64,000 bases of DNA from the NCBI GenBank assembly GCA_018223185.1, contig JAAEYW010000015.1, positions 29,119-93,118 on the forward strand. The letters run 5' to 3'. The notes under the pieces were generated by a model. That model saw only the letters and a list, made by a program, of their open reading frames with translations, was not told the DNA's origin and ran no database searches. The stretch is from Oceanospirillales bacterium (GTDB lineage: Bacteria; Pseudomonadota; Gammaproteobacteria; Pseudomonadales; Balneatricaceae). Each line of letters starts with the position of its first letter. Position 1 is the stretch's first letter. Shown here one piece after another: positions 45,640 to 60,310 of this stretch. Position numbers and translations under genes: made by a program.

Positions 45640-45705
45640 TTTTCTAGCGAGTCGCGAAGCGACGTTCTAACAACTAGCAGCCGCGAAGCGGCGATCTAGC
45701 CACTG
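45640..45705 (-). repeat. CTAG-delimited short-hairpin array downstream of IclR gene
   Basis: minus: CTAGATCGCCGCTTCGCGGCTGCTAGTTGTTAGAACGTCGCTTCGCGACTCGCTAGAAAAAGCG. Confidence 0.75.
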
Positions 45706-46466
45706 CTTTTCACATACCCCAGTTGCTCTGATATCGCTTTTCCGGCCTGAATCAGTTCATCAACCCATTCATCCCGGCGCCGGTCAATGGGTGCGGAGAG
45801 CGACAGCCCTGCGATGGGCTGGTTGCTCTGATCGTAGATCAGTACCCCGATGCAGCCTACACCGATCTCTGCCTCTTCGTTATCCAGTGCATACCCCCGG
45901 GCTGCCGAGGTCAGGCACTCTTCGGTCAGAGTTTCCAGAGAGTTGAAGGTATTACGGGTGTAAGCGGGCAGATTGGTGCGCTGTGCATAGCCGGCAATCT
46001 CCTGTTCGCCACTCATCCCCAGCATCAGTTTGCCAACACCGGTAACATGCAATGGCGCCCGGCTGCCGACGATCTGCTGCACATGCATCATGCGGTTAGG
46101 CGTGACTTTTTCAAAATAGATCACCACATCGCCTTCGCGGATGGTCAGGTTGATTGTCTCCCCCAGCTTATCCCGCAGTTTTTCCATATAGGGCATCGCC
46201 ACAGCCCGAAGGTCTATATCAGTATGCAGACGATTACTCAGTTGCAGTAATCGCTGCCCCAGCCGGTATTCGCCGGCACTGCTGCGCTCAACGAAGCGGT
46301 TATCGATCAGTGAGTGCAGAATACGGTGGGCAGTAGAGGGATGCAGGCCGGCATCCGCACTCAGCACTTTCAGTTTTACCGGTTTTGAATAACGGGAGAT
46401 AACGTCCAGCAGCAGGGTCGCGCGGTCGATAACCTGAATCCGGGATTCCGGTTTTGATTCTGACAT
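45696..46466 (-). CDS. bhcR: IclR-family regulator of beta-hydroxyaspartate cycle
   Basis: 256 aa IclR fold (LHPSTAHRILHSLIDNRFVER...); divergent from bhcABCD as in the known locus. Confidence 0.85.
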   Translation of the reverse strand: MSESKPESRIQVIDRATLLLDVISRYSKPVKLKVLSADAGLHPSTAHRILHSLIDNRFVERSSAGEYRLGQRLLQLSNRLHTDIDLRAVAMPYMEKLRDKLGETINLTIREGDVVIYFEKVTPNRMMHVQQIVGSRAPLHVTGVGKLMLGMSGEQEIAGYAQRTNLPAYTRNTFNSLETLTEECLTSAARGYALDNEEAEIGVGCIGVLIYDQSNQPIAGLSLSAPIDRRRDEWVDELIQAGKAISEQLGYVKSSG

Positions 46467-46563
46467 AGAGATCTCCTGTTAACGACTGATGCTAATAGAT
46501 TGATGTTTTTTATAGTGTGCAATTTTTAATGAAATTACCACATCGCAATAGTAAAAAACATAA

Positions 46564-46578
46564 TTTCATAATATGGAA
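46564..46578. promoter_or_regulatory. putative BhcR operator half 1
   Basis: TTTCATAATATGGAA, imperfect palindrome. Confidence 0.45.
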
Positions 46579-46658
46579 TTTTATATTTTTAACTTTATTG
46601 GTTTTTTATCCCTTTAATTTCAATTATTTAATCTAAAAATAACCGACAAATACTATAT

Positions 46659-46673
46659 TTTCATAATGTGAAA
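46659..46673. promoter_or_regulatory. putative BhcR operator half 2
   Basis: TTTCATAATGTGAAA, palindrome; 95 bp from the first. Confidence 0.5.
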
Positions 46674-46790
46674 TATTTGCATATTGCGGAAGTTGTCTGT
46701 TCTTCTTATGGTTGATAACACTTAAGTATTACTGCTTCAGATGATCCGGAAGTAATACGCCTTTTCTCAATAATTAAAAGAGTAATCACC

Positions 46791-47972
46791 ATGACAGATC
46801 AGAATCCTGTTTTCATACCCGGCCCGACCAATATTCCTGATCGGTTACGTAATGCCATGCATCTCCAGACCCGCGATCACCGGGCGCCGGACTTTGTAGA
46901 AACATTCGCCCCGGTACTGAATGACTGCAAACGTGTTTTTGGTACTGAGTCGGGTCAGGTGATTACATTCCCTTCCAGCGGTACCGGTGGCTGGGAAGCA
47001 TCGATCTGCAACACGCTGTCGCCAGGCGATAAAGTTCTGATCGCCCGTTACGGGATGTTTTCTCATCGCTGGATCGATCTGTGTCAGCGTCACAATCTTG
47101 ATGTTGAGGTTATCGAATGCCCCTGGGGCAGTGGTGCACCGGCTGACAAGTTTGCCGAGGTGCTGAGTGCCGACAAGGGTCATGAGATCAAAGCAGTACT
47201 GGTGACTCACAACGAAACCGCAACCGGGGTTAAGAGTGATATAGCAGCGGTTCGCAACGCAATGGACTCAGCAAATCATCCGGCCATGCTGTTTGTTGAC
47301 TGCGTAAGTTCACTGGCGTCTATGCCGTTTGAGATGGATGCCTGGGGCGTCGATATCGCGGTATCCGGTTCTCAGAAAGGTTTTATGCTGAATACCGGCA
47401 TGGCGATTCTGGGGGTTAGTCAGAAAGCCCTGGCGGCAATGGAGAGCGCCACGCTGACACGCACGTTCTTTGATTTTCGCGACATGATGGCCGCGAACGC
47501 CAACGGCGGGTTTCCCTATACGCCGCCGCTGCAGCTGATCTATGGCATGAAAGAGAGTCTGGCGATGCTGTTTGAAGAGGGACTGGAAAATGTTTATGCC
47601 CGCCATCACCGGCTGGCCGAAGGGGTTCGTAAAGCGGTTGCTGCCTGGGGGCTGGAACTCTGTGCTCAGTCGCCGGAACTGTATTCCGACACCGTGAGTG
47701 CGATCTATGTACCGGAAGGTTTTGACAGCAACCAGCTGACCGAACATGCCTTCAATGCCTATGGCGTATCGTTTGGCATCGGTCTGGGCGAGATGAATGG
47801 TAAAGCGTTCCGCATCGGCCATCTGGGATCGCTGACTGACGTTATGGTGCTGTCGGGACTGGCAACCATTGAGATGGCAATGGCCGATCTGAACTACCCG
47901 ATTCAGCTGGGCTCCGGCGTTGCCGCAGCACAGGAATATTTCCGTAAGACGGCTAACCGGAACAAGTGTTAA
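46791..47972 (+). CDS. bhcA: L-aspartate:glyoxylate aminotransferase
   Basis: 393 aa class-V aminotransferase (FIPGPTNIPDRLRNAM, SGSQKGFMLNTGMAILG); operon context. Confidence 0.9.
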   Translation: MTDQNPVFIPGPTNIPDRLRNAMHLQTRDHRAPDFVETFAPVLNDCKRVFGTESGQVITFPSSGTGGWEASICNTLSPGDKVLIARYGMFSHRWIDLCQRHNLDVEVIECPWGSGAPADKFAEVLSADKGHEIKAVLVTHNETATGVKSDIAAVRNAMDSANHPAMLFVDCVSSLASMPFEMDAWGVDIAVSGSQKGFMLNTGMAILGVSQKALAAMESATLTRTFFDFRDMMAANANGGFPYTPPLQLIYGMKESLAMLFEEGLENVYARHHRLAEGVRKAVAAWGLELCAQSPELYSDTVSAIYVPEGFDSNQLTEHAFNAYGVSFGIGLGEMNGKAFRIGHLGSLTDVMVLSGLATIEMAMADLNYPIQLGSGVAAAQEYFRKTANRNKC

Positions 47973-48030
47973 TAAAGGCGCGTGCAGTAAGCAGAGCAAG
48001 ACAGCAGTAATCAATTTTTTGAGGTATCTC

Positions 48031-49008
48031 ATGACCGATACAAATGAACAGACGATGACGATTCCGACCTATGACGATGTCCTGATCGCCCATGAGCGGA
48101 TTAAACCCTATATCCATGAAACGCCGGTGCTGACCTCCCGTTTTCTTAATGAGCTGACCGGTGCTGAACTGTTTTTCAAGTGTGAAAACCTGCAGAAAGC
48201 CGGAGCCTTTAAAGTGCGGGGTGCATCCAATGCGGTGTTTGGCCTGACTGAAGCTCAGGCAGCGGTGGGGGTGGCAACACACTCATCCGGCAACCATGCG
48301 CTGTCGCTTTCCTATGCGGCGGGTCAGCGGGGGATTCCGGTAACCGTGGTCATGCCACGCACCGCTCCCCAGGCGAAGAAAGATGCAGTACGGGGTTATG
48401 GCGGCACCATCGTTGAATGCGAACCTTCAACCAGTTCCCGTGAAGCGGTATTTGCCGACGTCGTGGCCGAATCCGGGGCCGATTTTGTCCACCCCTATAA
48501 CGACCCCCGGGTTATTGCCGGACAGGCAACCTGCGCTAAAGAACTGCTGAGCCAGGTAGACAATCTGGATGCGGTGATCGCGCCCATTGGTGGCGGCGGG
48601 ATGATCTCAGGCACCTGTCTGACACTCTCGACTCTCGCTCCACAGGTGAAAATCTATGCGGCGGAACCGCTGAATGCCGATGATGCTGCCCGCTCTTTCA
48701 AAGCCGGTTACATCATTGCCGATGATGCCCCCGAAACGGTGGCCGATGGTCTGAAAGTGCCGTTGAAAGATCTCACCTGGCACTTTGTCAGCAACCATGT
48801 CACCGACATTCTTACCGCGACAGAGGAAGAGATTGTCGACGCGATGAAGCTGATCTGGAAGCGCATGAAGATCGTGGTTGAACCGAGCAGTGCCGTGCCG
48901 CTGGCTACGATTCTTAAGAATCCGGAACTTTTCAGAGGTAAGCGGGTGGGCGTGATTATAACCGGCGGTAATGTTGATCTCGACAAATTGCCATGGCTGA
49001 ACGACTAA
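48031..49008 (+). CDS. bhcB: beta-hydroxyaspartate dehydratase
   Basis: 325 aa PLP fold-type II (KCENLQKAGAFKVRGASNA, ATHSSGNHALSLSYAA); RBS GAGGT. Confidence 0.9.
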   Translation: MTDTNEQTMTIPTYDDVLIAHERIKPYIHETPVLTSRFLNELTGAELFFKCENLQKAGAFKVRGASNAVFGLTEAQAAVGVATHSSGNHALSLSYAAGQRGIPVTVVMPRTAPQAKKDAVRGYGGTIVECEPSTSSREAVFADVVAESGADFVHPYNDPRVIAGQATCAKELLSQVDNLDAVIAPIGGGGMISGTCLTLSTLAPQVKIYAAEPLNADDAARSFKAGYIIADDAPETVADGLKVPLKDLTWHFVSNHVTDILTATEEEIVDAMKLIWKRMKIVVEPSSAVPLATILKNPELFRGKRVGVIITGGNVDLDKLPWLND

Positions 49009-49030
49009 TAATTTTGACAGGAGAATAATA

Positions 49031-50188
49031 ATGAATGCACAGAATGAGCTGCACAATCTTGAAGTAGGTTACGACGTTCCGGCCATCCCGGGAATGGATG
49101 AAGCGGATATTCAGACACCCTGTCTGATTGTTGACCTCGATGCGCTGGAAAAAAATATCCGCACCATGGGGCAGTACGCTAAACAGATGGGGGTGCGTCA
49201 CCGGGTGCACGGCAAGATGCATAAGTCGGTTGATATTGCATTATTGCAGGAAAAACTGGGTGATAGCTGCGGTGTTTGCTGCCAGAAGGTTTCTGAGGCT
49301 GAGGTGTTTGCCCGCGGCGGAATTAAAGATGTACTGGTATCGAACCAGGTGCGTGATCCGGCCAAGATCGACCGTATGGCACGGTTGCCAAAACTGGGTG
49401 CCCGGACGATCTGCTGTGTTGATGATATTGAAAACGTAGCGGAACTATCTGCCGCAGCGCAGAAGCATGGCACGCAGATCGAGTGTCTGGTTGAGATCGA
49501 TTGTGGTGCCGGACGTTGCGGTGTTGCCGCAGGGCAGCCGGTTGTGGATATCGCTCTGGCGATTGATGCGGCTCCCGGTCTGAAGTTCGCCGGTATTCAG
49601 GCGTATCAGGGGGCGATGCAGCATCTGCAGAACTATAACGAGCGCAAAGAGAAAGTCGACATTGCCATTGAGATGGTGGCCCGTTCGGTTGAGATGCTTA
49701 AAGCCGCAGGGCTTGAGTGCGACATCGTCGGTGGCGGCGGTACCGGGTCCTATTATTTTGAAGGGGCTTCCGGTGTTTATAACGAGCTGCAGTGTGGTTC
49801 CTACGCCTTTATGGATGCCGATTACCAGACCATCCATGATGAAAACGGTGAGCGGATCTCCGAGTTTGAAAACTCACTGTTTATTCTCACCTCGGTCATG
49901 AGCCACGCTAAAGCCGATAAAGCGATCTGTGATGCCGGTCTGAAAGCGCAGTCTGTTGACAGTGGACTGCCCTATATTTTTGGCCGCGACGATGTGGAAT
50001 ATATCAAATGCTCTGATGAGCATGGGGTGATCTCCGATCCGAATGGCGCACTGAAGGTGAACCAGAAGATACGTCTGGTGCCGGGGCACTGTGATCCCAC
50101 CTGTAATGTTCACGATTACTATGTGGGTGTACGTAATGGCAAGGTGGAAACACTGTGGCCGGTATCGGCCCGCGGTAAGGCTTACTAA
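49031..50188 (+). CDS. bhcC: beta-hydroxyaspartate aldolase
   Basis: 385 aa D-threonine aldolase-like (TPCLIVDLDALEKNIRTM...RHRVHGKMHKS; C-terminal metal-site HCDPTCNVHDYY). Confidence 0.9.
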   Translation: MNAQNELHNLEVGYDVPAIPGMDEADIQTPCLIVDLDALEKNIRTMGQYAKQMGVRHRVHGKMHKSVDIALLQEKLGDSCGVCCQKVSEAEVFARGGIKDVLVSNQVRDPAKIDRMARLPKLGARTICCVDDIENVAELSAAAQKHGTQIECLVEIDCGAGRCGVAAGQPVVDIALAIDAAPGLKFAGIQAYQGAMQHLQNYNERKEKVDIAIEMVARSVEMLKAAGLECDIVGGGGTGSYYFEGASGVYNELQCGSYAFMDADYQTIHDENGERISEFENSLFILTSVMSHAKADKAICDAGLKAQSVDSGLPYIFGRDDVEYIKCSDEHGVISDPNGALKVNQKIRLVPGHCDPTCNVHDYYVGVRNGKVETLWPVSARGKAY

Positions 50189-50256
50189 GGCACTTAAACC
50201 CGATGAACAGATGTCCGTCAGGGCATCTGATGAATATCTGATTAAGGAGAATATGT

Positions 50257-51270
50257 ATGGGTGCTTCTTTAGAAGAGCCGGCCACAGTCAATGCAATAGG
50301 GGGAATAAACCTTGTATCTGAAGCTGTTTGTGAGCAAGTGGTTGGCAGGCCAGAGGCCTTTACTGCCGTTGAAAACGTGTTTGCGGCAATGGCCCGTGGT
50401 GATGCGTATAACTTCCCTGTGGTTCGGGAAGCGATCGGTCATGCCGATGCCCTCTATGGTTTCAAGTCCGGCTTCGATCGTGCCGGGATGGTACTGGGGG
50501 TCAAATCCGGTGGTTACTGGCCGGGTAACGTCGATAAAAACCTGACCAATCATCAGTCCACCGTGATTCTGTTTGATCCGGATACCGGTCAGCTGAAGTC
50601 GCTGGTGGGCGGCAATTATCTGACCGCCGTGCGCACGGCAGCGGCTTCGGCAGTGTCGATTGCGCATCTGGCGCGCCAGGATGCCCGGGTGCTGGGGATG
50701 GTCGGTGCCGGACATCAGTCAACCTTCCAGTTGCGGGCCGCGGTTGAGCAACGCAACTTTGAAAAAGTGGTGGCCTGGAATCCTCATCCGGAATATCTGT
50801 CGCGGCTGGCGGCGGTGTGTGATGAGCTGGGGCTGCCGTTTGAAGCGGTTGAGCGGGAGCAACTGGGAGCCGAGGCGGATGTCATTATCACCATCACCTC
50901 TGCTTTTGAACCGCTGCTGATGAAACAGTGGATTAAACCGGGCACCCATATCGCCTGTATGGGCACCGATACCCGGGGCAAGCAGGAAGTTGATCCTGAA
51001 CTGCTGGCGAGCGCTTCGGTATTTACCGATGAGGTGGCACAGTCGATCTCTATCGGTGAAGCCCAGCACGCAGTCGCCTCGGGTCTGCTGAGTGAAACCG
51101 CTATCACGCCTGTCGGTGAGGTGATCAATGGCACCCATCCGGGCCGTCGTGATGACCAGGAGATCACCCTGTTTGATGGCACGGGTGTCGGCCTTCAGGA
51201 TCTGGCGGTTGCCTCCGCTGCGGTCGAACTGGCGCAGAAACAGGGGCTGGCTCAGACAGTCGTGCTGTAA
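50257..51270 (+). CDS. bhcD: iminosuccinate reductase (ornithine cyclodeaminase/mu-crystallin family)
   Basis: 337 aa; GGNYLTAVRTAAASAVSIAHLARQDARVLGMVGAGHQS. Confidence 0.9.
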   Translation: MGASLEEPATVNAIGGINLVSEAVCEQVVGRPEAFTAVENVFAAMARGDAYNFPVVREAIGHADALYGFKSGFDRAGMVLGVKSGGYWPGNVDKNLTNHQSTVILFDPDTGQLKSLVGGNYLTAVRTAAASAVSIAHLARQDARVLGMVGAGHQSTFQLRAAVEQRNFEKVVAWNPHPEYLSRLAAVCDELGLPFEAVEREQLGAEADVIITITSAFEPLLMKQWIKPGTHIACMGTDTRGKQEVDPELLASASVFTDEVAQSISIGEAQHAVASGLLSETAITPVGEVINGTHPGRRDDQEITLFDGTGVGLQDLAVASAAVELAQKQGLAQTVVL

Positions 51271-51297
51271 CTCAGCCCGTTTTTATCGCCAGACTTA

Positions 51298-51340
51298 AGC
51301 ACCCCTGACGTTCAGGACGGGGTGTTTCTTCTCTTAATTT
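51298..51340 (+). terminator. terminator or attenuator between bhcD and downstream gene
   Basis: AAGCACCCC-TGACGTTCAGGA-CGGGGTGTTT then T-rich tract. Confidence 0.5.
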
Positions 51341-51361
51341 TTTATCGTACAGGTGCTGATC

Positions 51362-52246
51362 ATGAGTTCTGCTGCACGATTACGACTGCGTGAGCTGCTG
51401 GATAGTCAGCAATGTGTTACCTGCGCGTCGGTATTTGACCCTCTGTCCTCACGGATGGCGGATGAGATAGGTTTTCAGGTCGGCATTCTGGGTGGCTCTG
51501 TGGCATCGCTGATGTCGCTCGGGGTGCCGGATATCTATCTGCTGACCCTGAGCGAACTGGCGGAACAGGCGCGCAGGGTGTGTCAGGCGTCCGATCTGCC
51601 GGTGATTGTTGATGGTGATAACGGTTATGGTAATGCCCTCAATGTGATGCGCACGGTGGCTGAGCTTGAACATGCCGGTGCAGCGGTGATCACCATCGAA
51701 GATACGGTTATTCCCAGACCCTATAAACAGCCGGAGCTGAACCTCAGCAGTATTGAAGAGGGCTGCAGTAAACTACAGGCGGCACTGAACGCCCGTAAAG
51801 ATGCAAACCTGGCGATCTTTGCCCGTACTCATGCACATCAGCCTCATCGGAATCTGCTCGAACGGATGGACGCTTACAGTCGCAGCGGAGTGGATGGCAT
51901 CTGTATTTTTGGCCAGATATCCAGAGCGTTGCTGGTGCAGCTTAACCGGGTTACCGATCTGCCGCTGATGCTGATCGATTATGAAGCGTCTGGGCTATCT
52001 TCAGGCTCAGGGCTGTCTTCAGAAGAGTTGATGCAACTGGGGGTGCGGATTCATTTCAATGGTCATCGTGCGTATGAAGACTCGGTTAAGGCGACCTATC
52101 AGTCGCTGCTGCAACTGCATAACGGCCGTGAATCCCGCGGCAGGACCGATAACGATCAGAATGCGAAGCAGCTGATCGGACGCTTTGCCCGACAGCAGAG
52201 CTTTACGGCTATGAGCAACGATTATCTTGATCCCGTTGCCCGTTAA
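51362..52246 (+). CDS. isocitrate lyase/PEP mutase superfamily; oxaloacetate decarboxylase-like
   Basis: 294 aa; DLPVIVDGDNGYGNALNVMRTVAELEHAGAAVITIEDTVIPRPYK. Confidence 0.8.
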   Translation: MSSAARLRLRELLDSQQCVTCASVFDPLSSRMADEIGFQVGILGGSVASLMSLGVPDIYLLTLSELAEQARRVCQASDLPVIVDGDNGYGNALNVMRTVAELEHAGAAVITIEDTVIPRPYKQPELNLSSIEEGCSKLQAALNARKDANLAIFARTHAHQPHRNLLERMDAYSRSGVDGICIFGQISRALLVQLNRVTDLPLMLIDYEASGLSSGSGLSSEELMQLGVRIHFNGHRAYEDSVKATYQSLLQLHNGRESRGRTDNDQNAKQLIGRFARQQSFTAMSNDYLDPVAR

Positions 52247-52254
52247 GCGGGTAA

Positions 52255-52899
52255 TTACTTAATCAGAAGATCAATCAGTACCCCAGGTTCGTTAATCAGA
52301 TAATCACTGTTGGCGCTGTTCAGTTCGTCAGTTTCGCCATAACCCCAGCTGACGGCCACTGAGTTCAGCCCGTGTGCCCTGGCGGCCTGAATATCGCTGG
52401 CTCTGTCGCCGACCATCCAGTGGATGCTGTGAGGGCGGGGGTGATGTCTGATTAACTCCCCCAGATGCTCGGTTTTATCGCTTTTACCTCCGCTGAGTTC
52501 ACTCCCGTGGATGCCATCAAACAGGTTAGCCAGCCGTGCATCCTGTAGCAGCCACTCAGCCTGAGGCTGGGGTTTAACCGTCAGGACCCGCAACCGTAAC
52601 CCGGCATTTGCAAGCTGTTCTAACACCTCCCGGACACCGGGATAAACGACGTAGTTTCTGATCCCCTGCTGCAGGTAATGCTGCCGGAAGCGGGTGACCG
52701 CATCCTCAATCAGAGGCACCTCTTTACTGCCCATCAGCCGGGCAAAGCTATCGCGAATAGGCGGCCCAAAGCAGCTCTGTAACTGCTCTGCTGTGGCCTG
52801 TGGATAACCGAGCCCGGCGAGCGCACTCTGAATTGATTCGGCAATGCCGTTTTGAGAGTCGAGCAGGGTGCCATCGAGATCAAAAAATACAGTGTTCAT
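52255..52899 (-). CDS. HAD-family phosphatase (phosphoglycolate phosphatase-like)
   Basis: MNTVFFDLDGTLLDSQNGI...; WMVGDRASDIQAARAHGLNSVAVSWGYG. Confidence 0.88.
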   Translation of the reverse strand: MNTVFFDLDGTLLDSQNGIAESIQSALAGLGYPQATAEQLQSCFGPPIRDSFARLMGSKEVPLIEDAVTRFRQHYLQQGIRNYVVYPGVREVLEQLANAGLRLRVLTVKPQPQAEWLLQDARLANLFDGIHGSELSGGKSDKTEHLGELIRHHPRPHSIHWMVGDRASDIQAARAHGLNSVAVSWGYGETDELNSANSDYLINEPGVLIDLLIK

Positions 52900-52947
52900 A
52901 GTGAGGCTTATCTTCGTGGATATCTGGTTACCGGTGCAGAGTGTTTT

Positions 52948-52959
52948 ATTGTACACAAT
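52948..52959. promoter_or_regulatory. ATTGTACACAAT palindrome upstream of HAD phosphatase
   Basis: one-base-class variant of ATTGTATACAAT seen at 53892 and 59682. Confidence 0.35.
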
Positions 52960-53029
52960 TTTAAACAGGGTGGTTTGATCTGAGAACGCTGCGCGTGTCT
53001 GAGGCTCGAAAGAACATCGGGCGGTGGCC

Positions 53030-53640
53030 GCTTCTGTAGGAGCCGCTTCCAGCGGCGATTGAAACGCTCGCGTAGGAACGCCTTTAGCATGCCCTCTGGG
53101 TACCCGGTGCGATGGTTTGTGCAGGTGCAAGGTCTTATCGCTGCAAGATGCAGCTCCTACGATTAAACCTACAATTCAACCCCGCAATGAAACTGATGAT
53201 CTGACCACTTTTGTGGGAGCCGCTTCCAGCGGCGATAAAACCGCTCGCGTAGGAGCGCCTTTAGCATGCCTTCTGGGTATCAGGCGCGATAGTCTGTGCC
53301 GCGTGAGATAAATCGCTGCAGGATGCAGCTCCTACGATTAAACCTACAATTCAACCCCGCAATGAAACTGATGATCTGACCACTTTTGTGGGAGCCGCTT
53401 CCAGCGGCGATAAAACCGCTCGCGTAGGAGCGCCTTTAGCATGCCCTCTGGGTATCAGGCGCGATGAATCTATTCGTGGTTCGATGTCCGAACGCTACGC
53501 TTGTCCGGGGTCTGGAAAAACATCGGGTGGTCGCATTTTTCGTAGGAGCGCCTTTAGCATGCCCTCTGGGTACCAGGCGCGAAGGTCTGTGCCGGTGCAA
53601 AGCCTTATCGCTGCAGGATGCAGCTCCTACAGATTAGCAC
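53030..53640. repeat. REP-like array including a ~175-bp tandem duplication
   Basis: GTAGGAGC..CTTCCAGCGGCGAT units and long-loop units GCGCCTTTAGCATGCCCTCTGGGTATCAGGCGCGAT; CGATTAAACCTACAATTCAACCCCGCAATGAAACTGATGATCTGACCACTTTTGTGGGAGCC occurs at ~53160 and ~53335. Confidence 0.85.
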
Positions 53641-53707
53641 CTACAATTTAGCTCCTACACTTCAATCGACAATGAACCGACAATAAAACCAACACCTTTA
53701 AAACACA

Positions 53708-53804
53708 TAAAAAAAAAAGACCGTCAGTCGCCTGACGGTCTTAAAACCCTCGAAAGGGGAGTCAACAAGAACCTCACCGAAAATGGATAGGTTGACGGTG
53801 AAGA
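53708..53804 (-). ncRNA. candidate small RNA with own promoter and intrinsic terminator
   Basis: minus: TTGACT-17-CACTAT promoter-like; GTCAAC...GTTGAC stem, CCCTTTCGAGGG tetraloop, AAGACCGTCAG-GCGA-CTGACGGTCTTTTTTTTTT terminator; no ORF. Confidence 0.6.
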
Positions 53805-53891
53805 GCTGTCATAGTGTCTAATCCTGACTTTTTAGTCAACTTTATGCCGGGTTAAAAGGTTTCACTATATGGCAACAATATATCTATTATT

Positions 53892-53901
53892 TTGTATACA
53901 A
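53892..53901. promoter_or_regulatory. TTGTATACAA palindrome upstream of GlcG-like gene
   Basis: perfect palindrome in the promoter region; recurs at 59682. Confidence 0.45.
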
Positions 53902-54025
53902 TAATTTGGTGTGAATGTATGTTTTATCTATAGAGTCGTTTTATATACCGCTGCACGAAGGTGTCGTCAGCGCCGAACGATCAGGTTTCTCAAATAATAA
54001 AATTAATATTTCAGAGGTAATACTG

Positions 54026-54463
54026 ATGGTCAGACTTGATCTGGAAAGTTCAATCGTCATAACCCAGGCGGCATTTGGTAAAAGTCGTGAGCTGAGTGCA
54101 GCGCCATTAACGGTGGCAATTCTGGATAGCGCCGGTAAGCTGATTTCGCTTCAGCGCCAGGATGGTTCGAGTATGCTGCGCCCGGATATAGCGATCGGTA
54201 AGGCATGGGGGGCCGTTGCCATGGGAAAGTCATCCCGTGAACTGGGCCGGGATGCGCTTGAGCGTCCGGCGTTTATATCTTCTTTAACGACTCTCGCTCA
54301 GGGTCATCTGGTGCCTGTTGCGGGCGGTGTGCTGGTGCGCAACAGCGATAATGAAGTGGTCGGAGCAGTGGGAATCAGCGGTGACTTGTCGGATGTCGAT
54401 GAGCTTTGTGCGATTACAGGCATTCAGGCCGCAGGACTGATTGCGGATGCGGGCACTGTCTAA
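54026..54463 (+). CDS. GlcG/HbpS-family (heme-binding-like) protein
   Basis: 145 aa; APLTVAILDSAGKLISLQRQDGSSMLRPDIAIGKAWGAVAMG...VPVAGGVLVR. Confidence 0.88.
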   Translation: MVRLDLESSIVITQAAFGKSRELSAAPLTVAILDSAGKLISLQRQDGSSMLRPDIAIGKAWGAVAMGKSSRELGRDALERPAFISSLTTLAQGHLVPVAGGVLVRNSDNEVVGAVGISGDLSDVDELCAITGIQAAGLIADAGTV

Positions 54464-54486
54464 AGCCTGATGGCGTAACCCTACAG

Positions 54487-54520
54487 ACACAGCCTCCGTG
54501 AATACGGGGGCTTTTTTGTT
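54487..54520 (+). terminator. terminator of GlcG-like gene
   Basis: GCCTCCGT-GAAT-ACGGGGGCTTTTTT. Confidence 0.75.
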
Positions 54521-54527
54521 ATTAAGC

Positions 54528-55145
54528 TTAAGCTTGAGAAGGCTGCACGCCGCAACCTTTCAATATCAGCCGGGTAAGCTGATCGGCCGCGATATCATAG
54601 TCATTCTGAGTCATCTTATCTTTGCCGGTGACCTTTGAAATCTGCCAGTCGAAGTCGGCATAGGTCTGAGTTGAGGCCCAGATGGTAAATAGCAGGTGGT
54701 GCGGATTAACCGGGTCGATCAGCCCCCGGTCGACCCAGGACTGAATCTTGTTACTGCTGACACGAGTCTGTTCCATCATCTGTTCAGCGATATCATCGGG
54801 CAGGTGAGGGGCGCCGTGCATGATCTCACTGGCAAACACCTTGGAGGCAGACGGGTGTTGTTGAGAAACCCGTATTTTGGCACGGATATACTGTTCCAGC
54901 ACCGTTGTGGGGTCATCGTTTTCGTAAAACGGGGTGGCAGCCTGAAGCAGTGGTTCAATCACGCTTTCAATAACGCTGCGGTAGAGGTTTTTTTTGCTTT
55001 TAAAATAGTAGTAAACGTTAGCCTTGGGCAGGCCTGCATGTTCGGCTATATCCACGGTTTTGGTCGCGGCATAACCCTGAGCGGCAAAAATTTCACTGGC
55101 AGCCTGAATAATCAGCTCCCTGTTACGTTCCCTTATCTTAGCCAT
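54528..55145 (-). CDS. TetR-family regulator, RutR-like
   Basis: start MAKIRERNRELIIQAASEIFAAQGY...; SQQHPSASKVFASEIMHGAP and DPVNPHHLLFTIWASTQTYADF resemble RutR. Confidence 0.85.
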   Translation of the reverse strand: MAKIRERNRELIIQAASEIFAAQGYAATKTVDIAEHAGLPKANVYYYFKSKKNLYRSVIESVIEPLLQAATPFYENDDPTTVLEQYIRAKIRVSQQHPSASKVFASEIMHGAPHLPDDIAEQMMEQTRVSSNKIQSWVDRGLIDPVNPHHLLFTIWASTQTYADFDWQISKVTGKDKMTQNDYDIAADQLTRLILKGCGVQPSQA

Positions 55146-55228
55146 CGGCGCATCTGCTTCCTGTTTTCTTATTATTCTGAGTGTGACTGTCAACTGCCGG
55201 GCAATGGTATCACCGGCACTCAACCCGG

Positions 55229-55269
55229 CTCAAGAGGGTTCAGGAGGGTTCAAGAGGGTTCAAGAGGGT
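55229..55269. repeat. 10-bp tandem repeat x4
   Basis: TCAAGAGGGT TCAGGAGGGT TCAAGAGGGT TCAAGAGGGT. Confidence 0.85.
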
Positions 55270-55293
55270 TAGGTCCCGCAGCCTGAGTGATAA

Positions 55294-55328
55294 AAGCAAA
55301 AGCCCTGTTATCTGAACAGGGCTTTTTA
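55294..55328. terminator. terminator between puuD operon and TetR gene
   Basis: AAAAGCCCTGTT-ATCTG-AACAGGGCTTTTT. Confidence 0.8.
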
Positions 55329-55358
55329 GTGTGCTATCTGAAGACGGCGTGTGCAAGG

Positions 55359-56534
55359 TTACTCAGTCAGAGCTCCCTGCGCGATCCAGGTGCCCAGCAG
55401 ATCACGTTCCTGTTGCGTCATCTGGGTGATATTACCCAGCGGCATCGCCTGAGTGGTGATCGCCTGAGCCTGAATTCTGGGTGCCAGAGTCTGGATCTGA
55501 TGCGCATCATCCATCACCACGCCGAGCGGTGCGGCGGTGAAACCTGCAAAGGTTGGGGTGGTGGAGTGACATACGGTGCAGCGTTCATCAATGATCTGTT
55601 TGACCTGAGTAAAGCTGACCCGGGTGTCTGATGTTTCAACGCTCTTGGGTGCGGTAACAAAGGCCAGTGCGATCATGCCCAGCGCCGCAGCCGGAATCGT
55701 CCAGATAAATTTCTGGCTTTGGTGACGGGTGTTAAAGTAGTGACGCACCAGTACACTCAGCACCGCCAGCCCGGCCAGAATTGCCCAGTTGTATTCAAAT
55801 CCGTAGGTGCTCGGGAAATGATTGCTGATCATGATGAACAGCACCGGCAGGGTGAAGTAGTTGTTGTGCCGGGAGCGCAACAGGCCTTTGGCAGGCAGTG
55901 CCGGGTCGGGTTCACGACCCGCATTAATGGCACCCACCAGATCGGTCTGCGCCGGCATAATGATAAAGAATACGTTACCCACCATGATGCTGCCGATAAT
56001 GGCGCCGATATGGATGAACGCAGCACGACCACTGAAGACCTGAGTGAATCCCCACGCTGCAGCAATCAGCAGGACAAACAGTACCAGACCCAGTAGCGCA
56101 GGATTCTTACCCAGCGGTGAGTCACACAGGGCGGTATAGATAAACCAGCCAGCGATCAGGCTGCCGATACTGATGCCGATGGCCGCGGCAGAGCTGAGCC
56201 CTGAACCGGGTGCCACCAGATAGAGTTGTGCATTCAGATAATACACCACCGCCAGCAGGATAAAGCCTGACAGGAAGGTGGCATACGCCTCCCATTTAAA
56301 CCAGTGCAGCTGCTCCGGCATCTTTGGCGGGGCAAGTTTGTATTTCTCAAGGTGATAGATACCGCCGCCGTGGATCGCCCACAGATCGCCGGACAGTCCT
56401 TCCCGTGGATTGCTACGGTCCAGATGGTTTTCCAGCCAGACGAAATAGAAGGAAGCGCCGATCCAGGCGATACCGGTAATCATATGTACCCAGCGTACCG
56501 CCAGGTTTAACCATTCAGTGATATGGGGATCCAT
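55359..56534 (-). CDS. puuD: membrane urate hydroxylase with C-terminal cytochrome c domain
   Basis: 391 aa; multi-TM, C-terminal IDERCTVCHSTTPTFAG. Confidence 0.9.
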   Translation of the reverse strand: MDPHITEWLNLAVRWVHMITGIAWIGASFYFVWLENHLDRSNPREGLSGDLWAIHGGGIYHLEKYKLAPPKMPEQLHWFKWEAYATFLSGFILLAVVYYLNAQLYLVAPGSGLSSAAAIGISIGSLIAGWFIYTALCDSPLGKNPALLGLVLFVLLIAAAWGFTQVFSGRAAFIHIGAIIGSIMVGNVFFIIMPAQTDLVGAINAGREPDPALPAKGLLRSRHNNYFTLPVLFIMISNHFPSTYGFEYNWAILAGLAVLSVLVRHYFNTRHQSQKFIWTIPAAALGMIALAFVTAPKSVETSDTRVSFTQVKQIIDERCTVCHSTTPTFAGFTAAPLGVVMDDAHQIQTLAPRIQAQAITTQAMPLGNITQMTQQERDLLGTWIAQGALTE

Positions 56535-56623
56535 GGTTTACTCCTCATATAGTGACGCTTATCGCTTTCGCTAAAGGCCAAAGTTATTAATTTTTATTGT
56601 GTCCGTTCCCGCTTGCCTGTCTG

Positions 56624-57142
56624 TCAGTGGTCTGACTCAAGCTCTATCCGGGTGTCTTCAGCAAAGTAATATTCATCACAGTTATTGCCTTCACCCTCGC
56701 GGTCGACAACCAGAAAGTCATCTTCCGGTACACAGCTTAAAACCGGGTGATGCCAGACGCCGGGGTGATAATTGATACCCTGACTGCCATCGGTGATAAA
56801 GGCGCGAATTTTGCCAGGTTCGGGTGTATCACCGGGTTCAGCAACGATGATCAGAAACGGGTTCTGCTTCAGGGGAATAAATGCCTGACTGCCAAACGGA
56901 TGCCGCTCCAGCAGTTTTATCTGTAGCGGCATCTCCAGTCCCTGTGCCCGGAAGATACTGATAATGCCACGGTCGCCCGGCTTGCCCAGCATCACCTCGG
57001 CTAAGCGGTGAAAACGCTGGGTTGAACCATTGTTGATCATGAAAAAGTCACGATCCCGGGTTTCAATAACTGTCCCGTAGGGGGCAAATGCGGCGGCTGT
57101 CAGGGGTTCCGGTGTCAGTATCTGACGGGTCTGTTTAGACAT
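56624..57142 (-). CDS. allA: ureidoglycolate lyase
   Basis: LTAAAFAPYGTVIE...; INYHPGVWHHPVLSCVPEDDFLVVDREG. Confidence 0.93.
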   Translation of the reverse strand: MSKQTRQILTPEPLTAAAFAPYGTVIETRDRDFFMINNGSTQRFHRLAEVMLGKPGDRGIISIFRAQGLEMPLQIKLLERHPFGSQAFIPLKQNPFLIIVAEPGDTPEPGKIRAFITDGSQGINYHPGVWHHPVLSCVPEDDFLVVDREGEGNNCDEYYFAEDTRIELESDH

Positions 57143-57152
57143 TTCAGGTTCC

Positions 57153-58139
57153 TCAGTCGGTGATTTTGCCAAACAGTCTCAGGCGGCTGACACCCCCATC
57201 CGGGAAGATGTTGAGACGGATATGGGTGATTGGCCCCAGATGATTAATCTGCTCAGTAAACTCATGTTCCTGATGCATCTCCAGTTTCTGAGAGGGCAGC
57301 AGTTCTTTCCAGAACAGGCTCTGGGTTTCAATCTGCTCATCGGTGCCGCCTTTAACAAAGGCCGCCTGAATTGAGCAGCTGTCCGGGTAGTTCCCCTTAA
57401 AGTGCAGGGTGTCCACAACGATACGGCTGATCTCACCCGGGTGACCCAGCGCAACGATGACCCAGTCGTTACCCGGTGTGCGGCGGCGGGCGGTTTCCCA
57501 GCCATCGCCCATGTTAATGGCCCGTCCGGGATTAAGAATGTTATTCATCTTACCGAAATGTTCATCACTGCAGGCCAGCGCCCGGCCCCCGTTAAGGGAT
57601 GCCGCCAGATCGATCTCCTGATCGCTGCTGATGCCGGACCAGTTCAGATAAGGGGTGCCATAGACTCTCAGACGGGCGACACCGCCATCCGGGAAAATAT
57701 TAAAGCGGATATGGGTCCAGGGCTGGTCATTATTAATCGCGTGCAGGTGCTGGCTGTCACCGTTGAGGCTGACAGCACCCAGTAGTTCGGTCCATTCGGT
57801 ATCGTCCGCCGGATCGCCGTCCTGACAGAAGCAGGCTTCCAGTGATGCCGAAGGCGGGTAGTTGCCGGTGAAGAAAGAGGTATCAATATCGACACCTTTG
57901 ATTACACCGGGCACACCGAGACGGATGATGGTGTAATCATAGCCTTCAAAGCGCTTCCGGCGGGATTCCCAGCCATCCATCCACTTACCATTGTCATCAA
58001 ATACACCCTCTTTCCAGACCGGGGCTTCCGGTTGTAGCATCCGGTCGACGGCGGCAAACCAGTCGTCAGTTACAAAGATCGCCTTGCTGCCCAGACGGGC
58101 GTCAGCCAGGTTGATGTGTTTCTCAAATGTTGTTGTCAT
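57153..58139 (-). CDS. alc: allantoicase
   Basis: duplicated allantoicase motif [12 protein letters not shown]...[25 protein letters not shown] and [25 protein letters not shown]. Confidence 0.95.
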
Positions 58140-58166
58140 TATCTGTCTCATTCTGGCAAAAATTAG

Positions 58167-58688
58167 TTACATAGCGTCCAGTCGGAACTGCGCTATTTTA
58201 TTAATCTCCAGCAGGGCACGATTGAACTCCTGCTCGGGGTTGTTATGTATACGCTCTTCAAAGGCGCTCAGAATCTGGTGCCGGTTGCTGCCCTTTACCG
58301 CCATAATGAACGGGAAGCCAAACTTTGCTTTGTAAGCATCATTTAACCGGGTAAACCGGTCGAACTCTTCGGCGGTGCACTCACTGATGCCGGCACCGGC
58401 CTGTTCTGAGGTTGAAGATTCAGTCAGCTCACCTGCGATAGCAGCCTTGCCGGCCAGATCCGGGTGAGCGTTGATCAGATCCAGTTGAGATTGTTTATCA
58501 GACTCAAGCAATATCTTTGCCATGCGCTGATGCAGCGCCGTTATCTGATCATGCTGGCTATCAATCCCCAGGTCATAGGCCTGTTCCGCGACCCAGGAAG
58601 AGTGCTCATAGATGTCGCCGAAGGTTTCGACAAACGCTTCACGACTCATCTGGCTCGGGGTGCAGTGTTGAAACTGAGCGTGACTCAT
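58167..58688 (-). CDS. uraD: 2-oxo-4-hydroxy-4-carboxy-5-ureidoimidazoline decarboxylase
   Basis: 173 aa; ...FVETFGDIYEHSSWVAEQAY...INAHPDLAGKAA...NDAYKAKFGFPFIMAVKG. Confidence 0.95.
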   Translation of the reverse strand: MSHAQFQHCTPSQMSREAFVETFGDIYEHSSWVAEQAYDLGIDSQHDQITALHQRMAKILLESDKQSQLDLINAHPDLAGKAAIAGELTESSTSEQAGAGISECTAEEFDRFTRLNDAYKAKFGFPFIMAVKGSNRHQILSAFEERIHNNPEQEFNRALLEINKIAQFRLDAM

Positions 58689-59608
58689 AACGCGGTCTCC
58701 GGGTTAAATGGGTGGTGGGCATGCCAGTGCTGGGCAATTTCGATTCGGCGACTGAACCAGACCTGTTCATGGCTCTGGGCATACTGGATAAACCGTTCCA
58801 GCGCCGCGATGCGTGCAGGCCGTCCGATGAGGCGGCAGTGCAGACCGATAGAGAGCATTTTTGGTGCATCGGCACCTTCTGCATACAGGGTGTCAAAGCT
58901 GTCTTTCAGGTATTGATAGAACTGTTCGCCACTGTTAAAACCCTGTTGCGTGGCAAAGCGCATATCATTGGTGTCCAGCGTGTACGGAATCACCAGATGG
59001 CCTTTGCCGTCGTTATTAACCCAGTAGGGCAGGTCATCGTCATAAGCGTCGGAGTCATACATAAAGCCGCCTTCCTCCATCACCAGTTTACGGGTGTTGG
59101 GACTGTTGCGGCCGGTATACCAGCCCTGCGGACGCTGACCGGTCACGCGGGTGATCACATCGATGGCACGCATCAGGTGATCACGTTCTTCTGATTCATC
59201 GAAATACTGATAATCGATCCAGCGGTAACCGTGGCTGCAGATCTCATGACCGGCATCGACCATCGCCTTCGCCACATCCGGATGACGCTCAATCGCCATC
59301 GCCACGGCAAAAATAGTCAGCGGAATATCATATTTACTGAACAGTTTCAGCACCCGCCACACACCGGCACGGCTGCCGTATTCATAACAGGATTCCATGC
59401 TCATATGACGCACACCCGGCAACGGCTGTGCGCCCGGCATCTCAGACAGAAATGCTTCGGACTCGCTGTCACCATGCAAAATGCAGCGCTCACCGCCCTC
59501 TTCGTAGTTGAGAACAAATGATATAGCGATACGGGCCTGTCCGGGCCAGCCGGGATGAGGCGGGTTGCTGCCATATCCGATCAGATCACGAGGATAGTCA
59601 TTGTTCAC
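58685..59608 (-). CDS. puuE: allantoinase PuuE (polysaccharide deacetylase type)
   Basis: GTG start with AAGGAG RBS; NNDYPRDLIGYGSNPPHPGWPGQARIAISFVLNYEEGGE. Confidence 0.93.
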   Translation of the reverse strand: MNNDYPRDLIGYGSNPPHPGWPGQARIAISFVLNYEEGGERCILHGDSESEAFLSEMPGAQPLPGVRHMSMESCYEYGSRAGVWRVLKLFSKYDIPLTIFAVAMAIERHPDVAKAMVDAGHEICSHGYRWIDYQYFDESEERDHLMRAIDVITRVTGQRPQGWYTGRNSPNTRKLVMEEGGFMYDSDAYDDDLPYWVNNDGKGHLVIPYTLDTNDMRFATQQGFNSGEQFYQYLKDSFDTLYAEGADAPKMLSIGLHCRLIGRPARIAALERFIQYAQSHEQVWFSRRIEIAQHWHAHHPFNPETAL

Positions 59609-59681
59609 GGGGGCACTCCTTAAAGAAACTGAAAGCGTGTAATGGATTAGATAATGGATCAATCCAAACCGGTATGCAATC

Positions 59682-59693
59682 ATTGTATACAAT
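59682..59693. promoter_or_regulatory. ATTGTATACAAT palindrome upstream of puuE operon
   Basis: perfect 12-bp palindrome; related TGTATACA at 59833-59840. Confidence 0.5.
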
Positions 59694-59956
59694 ATTTTTT
59701 AATAATGACAAGTTTGATGGTGCTGATAATTCCGGATTATCCGCTCAAAAGTATCATGTGACCTGGCGCTATCCCTTTAATATCAAAGGATTCAGGGTTT
59801 GTTTTCAGTATGTGATAATGTTACGAAATTAATGTATACAATTAAATTAAAAATTGTCTGTAAAAGTTGTTTTGCCTGTTCTATAGTGTAGTCATCTGCA
59901 GATCAGTTTAGCCTGATCTGCTCACAGGTATATATATGACAGAGGATTAATGACTC

Positions 59957-60310
59957 ATGGGTTATCTGACCACGCATGTGCTGGACTCAGCTCACGGCTG
60001 TCCCGGCAGTGAAATACCAGTAGCGCTCTACCGTATAAGCGACACCCGCCGCGAGCTGATACACACAACCCTGACCAATGACGATGGCCGCTGCGATCAG
60101 CCGGTGCTGGAAGGGGAGGATTTCAAAAAGGGCGTCTACGAACTGGTCTTCAGCGTTGGCAGCTATTACCGTCGGCGGGGTGTTGAACTGCCTGAACCGG
60201 CTTTCCTCGATGATGTGGTGCTGCGCTTTGGCATCGCCGATGAAGACGAGCATTACCATGTGCCGCTGCTGATCTCGCCTTATAGTTATTCAACGTATCG
60301 CGGGTCTTAA
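59957..60310 (+). CDS. uraH: 5-hydroxyisourate hydrolase
   Basis: 117 aa; LTTHVLDSAHGCPGSEIPVALY... C-terminal SPYSYSTYRGS. Confidence 0.96.
   Translation: MGYLTTHVLDSAHGCPGSEIPVALYRISDTRRELIHTTLTNDDGRCDQPVLEGEDFKKGVYELVFSVGSYYRRRGVELPEPAFLDDVVLRFGIADEDEHYHVPLLISPYSYSTYRGS

Follow-up and report, generated by a model that had tools for sequence, protein, structure and literature searches.

The beta-hydroxyaspartate cycle (BHAC) has so far been presented as a route for algal glycolate, and the aerobic degradation of urate is usually viewed as a route of nitrogen salvage. In the closest described BHAC locus, that of Paracoccus denitrificans, the cycle is glycolate-fed and bhcABCD stand beside a divergent gene for an IclR-family regulator; that paper brings in purines and allantoin solely as sources of glyoxylate in general, and a term search of it found no ureide gene cluster (PMC11323563). 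The other system of reference is the allA/gcl-hyi-glxR/AllR regulon of E. coli, in which AllR, of the IclR family, is described as binding the gcl promoter and the allS-allA region (PMC11323563). We analysed a stretch of 64,000 nucleotides (the window) on contig JAAEYW010000015.1 of an Oceanospirillales bacterium, in which a bhc cluster is followed by genes that lead from urate to glyoxylate.

The window shares with P. denitrificans the same four enzymes in the same order and the divergent IclR-family gene, but here the cluster is followed by an oxaloacetate-decarboxylase-like gene, a gene for a GlcG-like protein and the urate genes. As in E. coli, ureide-to-glyoxylate genes are tied to glyoxylate assimilation with an IclR-family regulator, whereas E. 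coli uses glyoxylate carboligase with loss of CO2 and the genome of the window has no gcl, the BHAC replacing it. All enzymes of the known urate degradation pathway (PuuD/UraH/UraD/PuuE/Alc/AllA) are present and differ from the known case in being linked to the BHAC. Both pathways are known; what appears to be new is a ureide-glyoxylate regulon with the BHAC where E. coli has glyoxylate carboligase. No description of this coupling was found in the literature searched, which did not include the founding 2019 BHAC paper, and priority is subject to that paper. We consider it probable that the locus is a carbon salvage module with regulatory links, in which purine and ureide carbon would flow through glyoxylate into the BHAC and purines would induce the genes.

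The bhc and urate gene clusters

BhcA, BhcB, BhcC and BhcD were all above their NCBIfam equivalog cut-offs and are encoded in a single cluster with the IclR-type gene divergent from it (Table 1). The IclR protein was 67-83% identical to proteins at the same position and orientation in other gammaproteobacterial bhc clusters and showed remote similarity only to the curated BhcR. An earlier note on this DNA had read the block as bhcR-bhcABCD; its bhcABCD stands, and its bhcR is in the right position but scores far below the BhcR cut-off. The closest named relative of the window BhcC is that of Amphritea balenae (93%), and the source genome is that of an Amphritea-like gammaproteobacterium.

The full aerobic set from urate to glyoxylate was found in the window, comprising urate oxidation, hydroxyisourate hydrolase, OHCU decarboxylase, allantoinase, allantoicase and ureidoglycolate lyase. 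Five of these proteins passed family cut-offs and PuuD was recognised through Urate_ox_N, which bears out the complete set described in the earlier note; the gene positions and strands given there also held. Genes for urate supply, encoding XdhABC and the guanine deaminase GuaD, are located on another contig (C27) of the same genome.

Table 1. Features of the bhc-urate region, in window coordinates. The start sites of bhcB, the HAD gene, glcG and puuE were refined by eye.
Feature	Position	Strand	Evidence or remark
IclR-family regulator, putative gammaproteobacterial BhcR	45696..46466	-	top NCBIfam match BhcR, 158 bits, cut-off 350
palindromic box TTTCATAATATGGAA, candidate IclR/BhcR site 1	46564..46578	.	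bhcR-bhcA intergenic; kept in five Amphritea and other gammaproteobacterial bhc promoters
palindromic box TTTCATAATGTGAAA, candidate IclR/BhcR site 2	46659..46673	.	bhcR-bhcA intergenic
bhcA, L-aspartate-glyoxylate aminotransferase	46791..47972	+	NF045640, 733 bits, cut-off 650
bhcB, beta-hydroxyaspartate dehydratase	48061..49008	+	NF045641, 609 bits, cut-off 550
bhcC, 3-hydroxy-D-aspartate aldolase	49031..50188	+	NF045642, 732 bits, cut-off 690
bhcD, iminosuccinate reductase	50311..51270	+	NF045643, 593 bits, cut-off 500
ICL/PEP-mutase-superfamily protein, likely oxaloacetate decarboxylase	51353..52246	+	top PDB match 3b8i (PA4872), E 7e-67; next family E 1e-25
HAD-IA hydrolase	52255..52899	-	open reading frame extends to 53130, extension repeat-derived
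TTGTATACAA, candidate purine-regulon-type operator	53892..53901	.	upstream of glcG; same position in six Amphritea species
GlcG/HbpS-like protein (PF03928)	54026..54463	+	family match; companion of gammaproteobacterial bhc clusters
TetR/RutR-like regulator, likely start 55145	54528..55223	-	family matches; between glcG and puuD
puuD, membrane urate hydroxylase, CxxCH	55359..56534	-	PF06181 (Urate_ox_N), E 5e-128; CxxCH motif C-terminal
allA, ureidoglycolate lyase (glyoxylate and urea released)	56624..57172	-	NF002949, 254 bits, cut-off 230
alc, allantoicase	57153..58151	-	TIGR02961, 484 bits, cut-off 278
uraD, OHCU decarboxylase	58167..58688	-	TIGR03164, 233 bits, cut-off 96
puuE, allantoinase, likely GTG start 59608	58685..59608	-	TIGR03212, 533 bits, cut-off 425
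TTGTATACAA, candidate operator	59683..59692	.	divergent puuE-uraH promoter; kept in all examined Amphritea urate loci, including those away from bhc
ATGTATACAA, second candidate operator	59832..59841	.	puuE-uraH promoter, 149 bp from TTGTATACAA copy
uraH, hydroxyisourate hydrolase	59957..60310	+	TIGR02962, 134 bits, cut-off 87

Recurrence of the neighbourhood

The earlier note had allowed that the adjacency might be unique to this strain. It is not: versions of the neighbourhood were found in other Amphritea, in Alphaproteobacteria and in Colwellia/Thalassotalea. The alphaproteobacterial sample was picked by assembly quality and held mostly one genome per genus of one family. AllA was located 1.0-5.3 kb from bhcC, invariably downstream and convergent, in 22 of the 57 genomes holding both BhcC and AllA, against about 0.3 expected within 10 kb under uniform placement (binomial P ~1e-35, uncorrected for kinship). 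The proximity of bhcC and AllA exceeds chance.

Plasmids from Ruegeria sp. THAF33, Leisingera methylohalidivorans and Sulfitobacter sp. W027, whose annotation was made independently, carry bhcRABCD within islands of urate/xanthine catabolism. The gene order on these three is allantoicase/ureidoglycine aminohydrolase - bhcR - bhcABCD - (extra genes) - nucleobase symporter - ureidoglycolate lyase - PuuE - UraH - LysR - PuuD, with xdhABC next after PuuD in Ruegeria. On a Pseudosulfitobacter plasmid xdhBC-permease-guaD-allantoicase precedes bhcR, and the combination of flanking ureide and purine genes differs among the plasmids of the four genera. Adjacency to ureide genes, mapped on the BhcC tree, needs at least 17 changes, of which 7 are forced by starred branches; the tree sample was enriched for adjacent loci, so the changes show patchiness and not a rate.

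Nine Amphritea genomes with an intact BhcC above the family cut-off were surveyed. Allantoicase lay within 8 kb of bhcC in the same layout in five of the nine, the window included, and elsewhere than near bhcC in three; the distance was about 15 kb in A. balenae, and allantoicase lay about 18 kb from bhc in a second genus of the same family. Colwellia and Thalassotalea have a third layout, in which bhcRBCD stands with genes for GlcG, malate synthase G, guanine deaminase, PuuD, AllA, UraH, UraD and Alc, and the Colwellia locus additionally contains add (adenosine deaminase).

Several loci showed variations in gene content. In Colwellia, Thalassotalea and Shewanella (L050, L056, L057, L065 and others) the order is bhcR-bhcBCD with no bhcA adjoining; several of these loci have nearby a divergent class V aminotransferase, which shares about 30% identity with BhcA, scores 210 bits (cut-off 650) and may substitute for it. 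Plasmids of Pseudosulfitobacter, Leisingera, Paracoccus and Sinorhizobium commonly bear bhcC. On one conjugative plasmid, from Phaeobacter gallaeciensis (L243), bhcBC stands together with genes for RidA and oxidoreductases, next to mercury resistance genes, and no bhcA is annotated. Immediately 3' of bhcD in two bhc/urate islands on Sulfitobacter plasmids (L241 11426-11872; L247 11402-11908) is a gene for an AmiS/UreI-type urea channel, which would be fitting for the disposal or uptake of urea from allantoicase and AllA.

Palindromes shared by purine and BHAC-associated promoters

Exactly five copies of TTGTATACAA were found in the genome of the window: one each upstream of glcG and of xdhABC-guaD, one in the puuE-uraH promoter, one in the gap between a GntR/FCD gene (C27, locus L233 12530-13258) and the divergent gene of a xanthine/uracil permease, and one inside an open reading frame (ORF). 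A relative (G010) has three exact copies in 4.6 Mb, at glcG, puuE-uraH and the GntR/permease promoter, and its xanthine block lies 10-20 kb past uraH. In Motiliproteus the bhcR-bhcA gap itself holds two copies, one exact and one with a mismatch; further copies are at puuE-uraH, at the GntR/permease promoter and upstream of the glcG homologue. The copies situated within ORFs, at C7 of the window's genome (G000) and at C52 of Motiliproteus, were treated as chance, and a further copy (C43) is just 5' of a LysR-type gene.

The IclR-type box TTTCATAATATGAAA is conserved across gammaproteobacterial bhc promoters, and in three Amphritea it also occurs at glcG, at most about 150 bp from TTGTATACAA. 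A palindrome common to the bhc and urate promoters was sought and none was found within the window, Colwellia or Thalassotalea clusters. Regulatory control is probably two-layered; we infer from the sequences that the network is under the overlapping control of a GntR repressor responsive to purines and an IclR regulator responsive to glyoxylate. The earlier note had not seen these regulatory links.

Routes of glyoxylate assimilation

Glyoxylate carboligase (TIGR01504) was found in none of the 78 genomes tested, the window's and 77 others, with E. coli as a positive control; the top score in the window's genome was 364 bits against a cut-off of 711. A gcl route elsewhere in this genome was rejected on these results, which agree with the proposal of the earlier note that the BHAC is used instead of glyoxylate carboligase. 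The enzyme was not found either in sampled Rhodobacteraceae lacking bhcC, and the absence of gcl is therefore no replacement pattern. Malate synthase by itself allows no net synthesis from glyoxylate without acetyl-CoA. Since gcl is absent and malate synthase alone needs acetyl-CoA, no net route for assimilating glyoxylate other than the BHAC was identified in the genome, in a search that covered glyoxylate carboligase and malate synthase G.

Proposed pathway and alternative explanations

In the pathway that we propose, guanine and xanthine would be converted to urate by GuaD and XdhABC, and urate to glyoxylate and two urea via PuuD, UraH, UraD, PuuE, Alc and AllA. BhcA-D would then convert two glyoxylate to one oxaloacetate with no CO2 lost, so that overall two urate would give two glyoxylate, four urea and one oxaloacetate, and the oxaloacetate could optionally be converted to pyruvate by the oxaloacetate-decarboxylase-like enzyme. 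The IclR-type BhcR homologue would sense glyoxylate, and TTGTATACAA would be the site through which the GntR/FCD purine regulator acts on xdh, the permease, puuE/uraH, glcG as a companion of the BHAC and, in Motiliproteus, bhcA. The fact that the urate genes adjoin bhc and seem partly co-controlled with it, in this bacterium and in many unrelated ones, suggests that purine carbon is used, not nitrogen alone. The coupling that the earlier note had inferred is thereby supported. If this is true, the use of purines by marine heterotrophs is carbon assimilation beside nitrogen salvage, urate and allantoin carbon being taken without CO2 loss, and BHAC gene counts in seawater could no longer be read as glycolate use alone. 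We give an even chance to a wider proposal, that in marine Alpha- and Gammaproteobacteria the BHAC is widely a terminal purine/ureide module, repeatedly assembled or kept adjacent and partly controlled by the purine GntR regulator, and that a sizeable share of marine BHAC use is fed by dissolved purines and ureides beside algal glycolate.

It seems improbable to us that the urate genes serve nitrogen only, with glyoxylate arising as a by-product that is excreted or consumed by malate synthase G, and the BHAC a separate glycolate pathway nearby. The recurrence in 22 of 57 genomes with a single fixed orientation, the ureide genes flanking bhcRABCD on Roseobacteraceae plasmids, and the palindrome common to purine genes and glcG or bhcA all argue against such a separation. 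The malate synthase G gene within the purine cluster of Colwellia would suit it, and so would several observations that weigh against our own proposal. Two malate synthase G genes above the cut-off offer an alternative glyoxylate sink in the window's genome; the earlier note had named malate synthase among the enzymes to check. Three Amphritea genomes have the urate pathway, with allantoicase, without bhcC, and the BHAC has been characterised for glycolate in P. denitrificans (PMC11323563). Also to be set against a coupled module is a second gammaproteobacterial family, in which 13 of the 15 genomes sampled have bhcC without AllA. The window's own bhc promoter moreover lacks TTGTATACAA, so that the direct link to bhc is drawn from Motiliproteus, and in Amphritea the link runs through glcG. 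The BHAC-ureide linkage is frequent, not obligatory, and the BHAC is not dedicated to ureides, as some relatives hold one pathway alone.

Given that bhcC was found on 119 plasmid records, the bhc and ureide genes might also be a mobile island, travelling together on plasmids as catabolic cargo with no metabolic coupling; other bhc plasmids bear unrelated cargo, for example mer or glutamine-synthetase-like genes. We regard this as very unlikely: it is specifically genes of a route with glyoxylate as its end product that are linked to bhc, their orientation is constant across many genera, and the arrangements differ among Amphritea, Rhodobacterales and Colwellia/Thalassotalea.

Genes between bhcD and puuD

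Two genes of this interval, the ICL/PEP-mutase-family gene directly 3' of bhcD and the RutR-like TetR gene, had been overlooked in the earlier note. The former also follows bhcD in Amphritea, Marinobacterium and Bermanella. Its product is about 40% identical over the full length to the PA4872 oxaloacetate decarboxylase (3b8i), with the LGGSVAS, GYGNALNVMRTV and NGH segments common to both; it differs in having DGDNGYG where PA4872 has DADHGYG and in being encoded 3' of bhcD. By this similarity it likely converts oxaloacetate to pyruvate as an oxaloacetate decarboxylase. Relatives of the RutR-like regulator are located with urate genes in Colwellia and Thalassotalea. The protein assigned to the GlcG family in the earlier note matches PF03928 and is HbpS-like. 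Its homologues adjoin bhcR or follow bhcD in Colwellia, Thalassotalea, Shewanella, Marinomonas, Bermanella and Marinobacterium (loci including L048, L050, L056, L059 and L097).

The HAD protein had been taken as phosphoglycolate-phosphatase-like and plausibly linked to glycolate/glyoxylate. We rejected this role as unsupported, since the protein fell under every phosphoglycolate-phosphatase cut-off (114 of 225 and 99 of 180 bits) and, among the loci examined, its gene is conserved within Amphritea only. The initial 77 codons of its ORF derive from an interspersed repeat with TTTAGCATGCCCTCTGGGTA, of which eight copies occur in the window against none expected (10667, 53083, 53260, 53435, 53553, 60504, 61261 and 61402). 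Four of the copies are crowded into 500 bp of the interval from the HAD gene to glcG, and the repeat is the source of the spurious N-terminus. In A. balenae the block has gained a pyruvate kinase gene (L196 13466-14947) in this interval, beside the oxaloacetate-decarboxylase-like gene.

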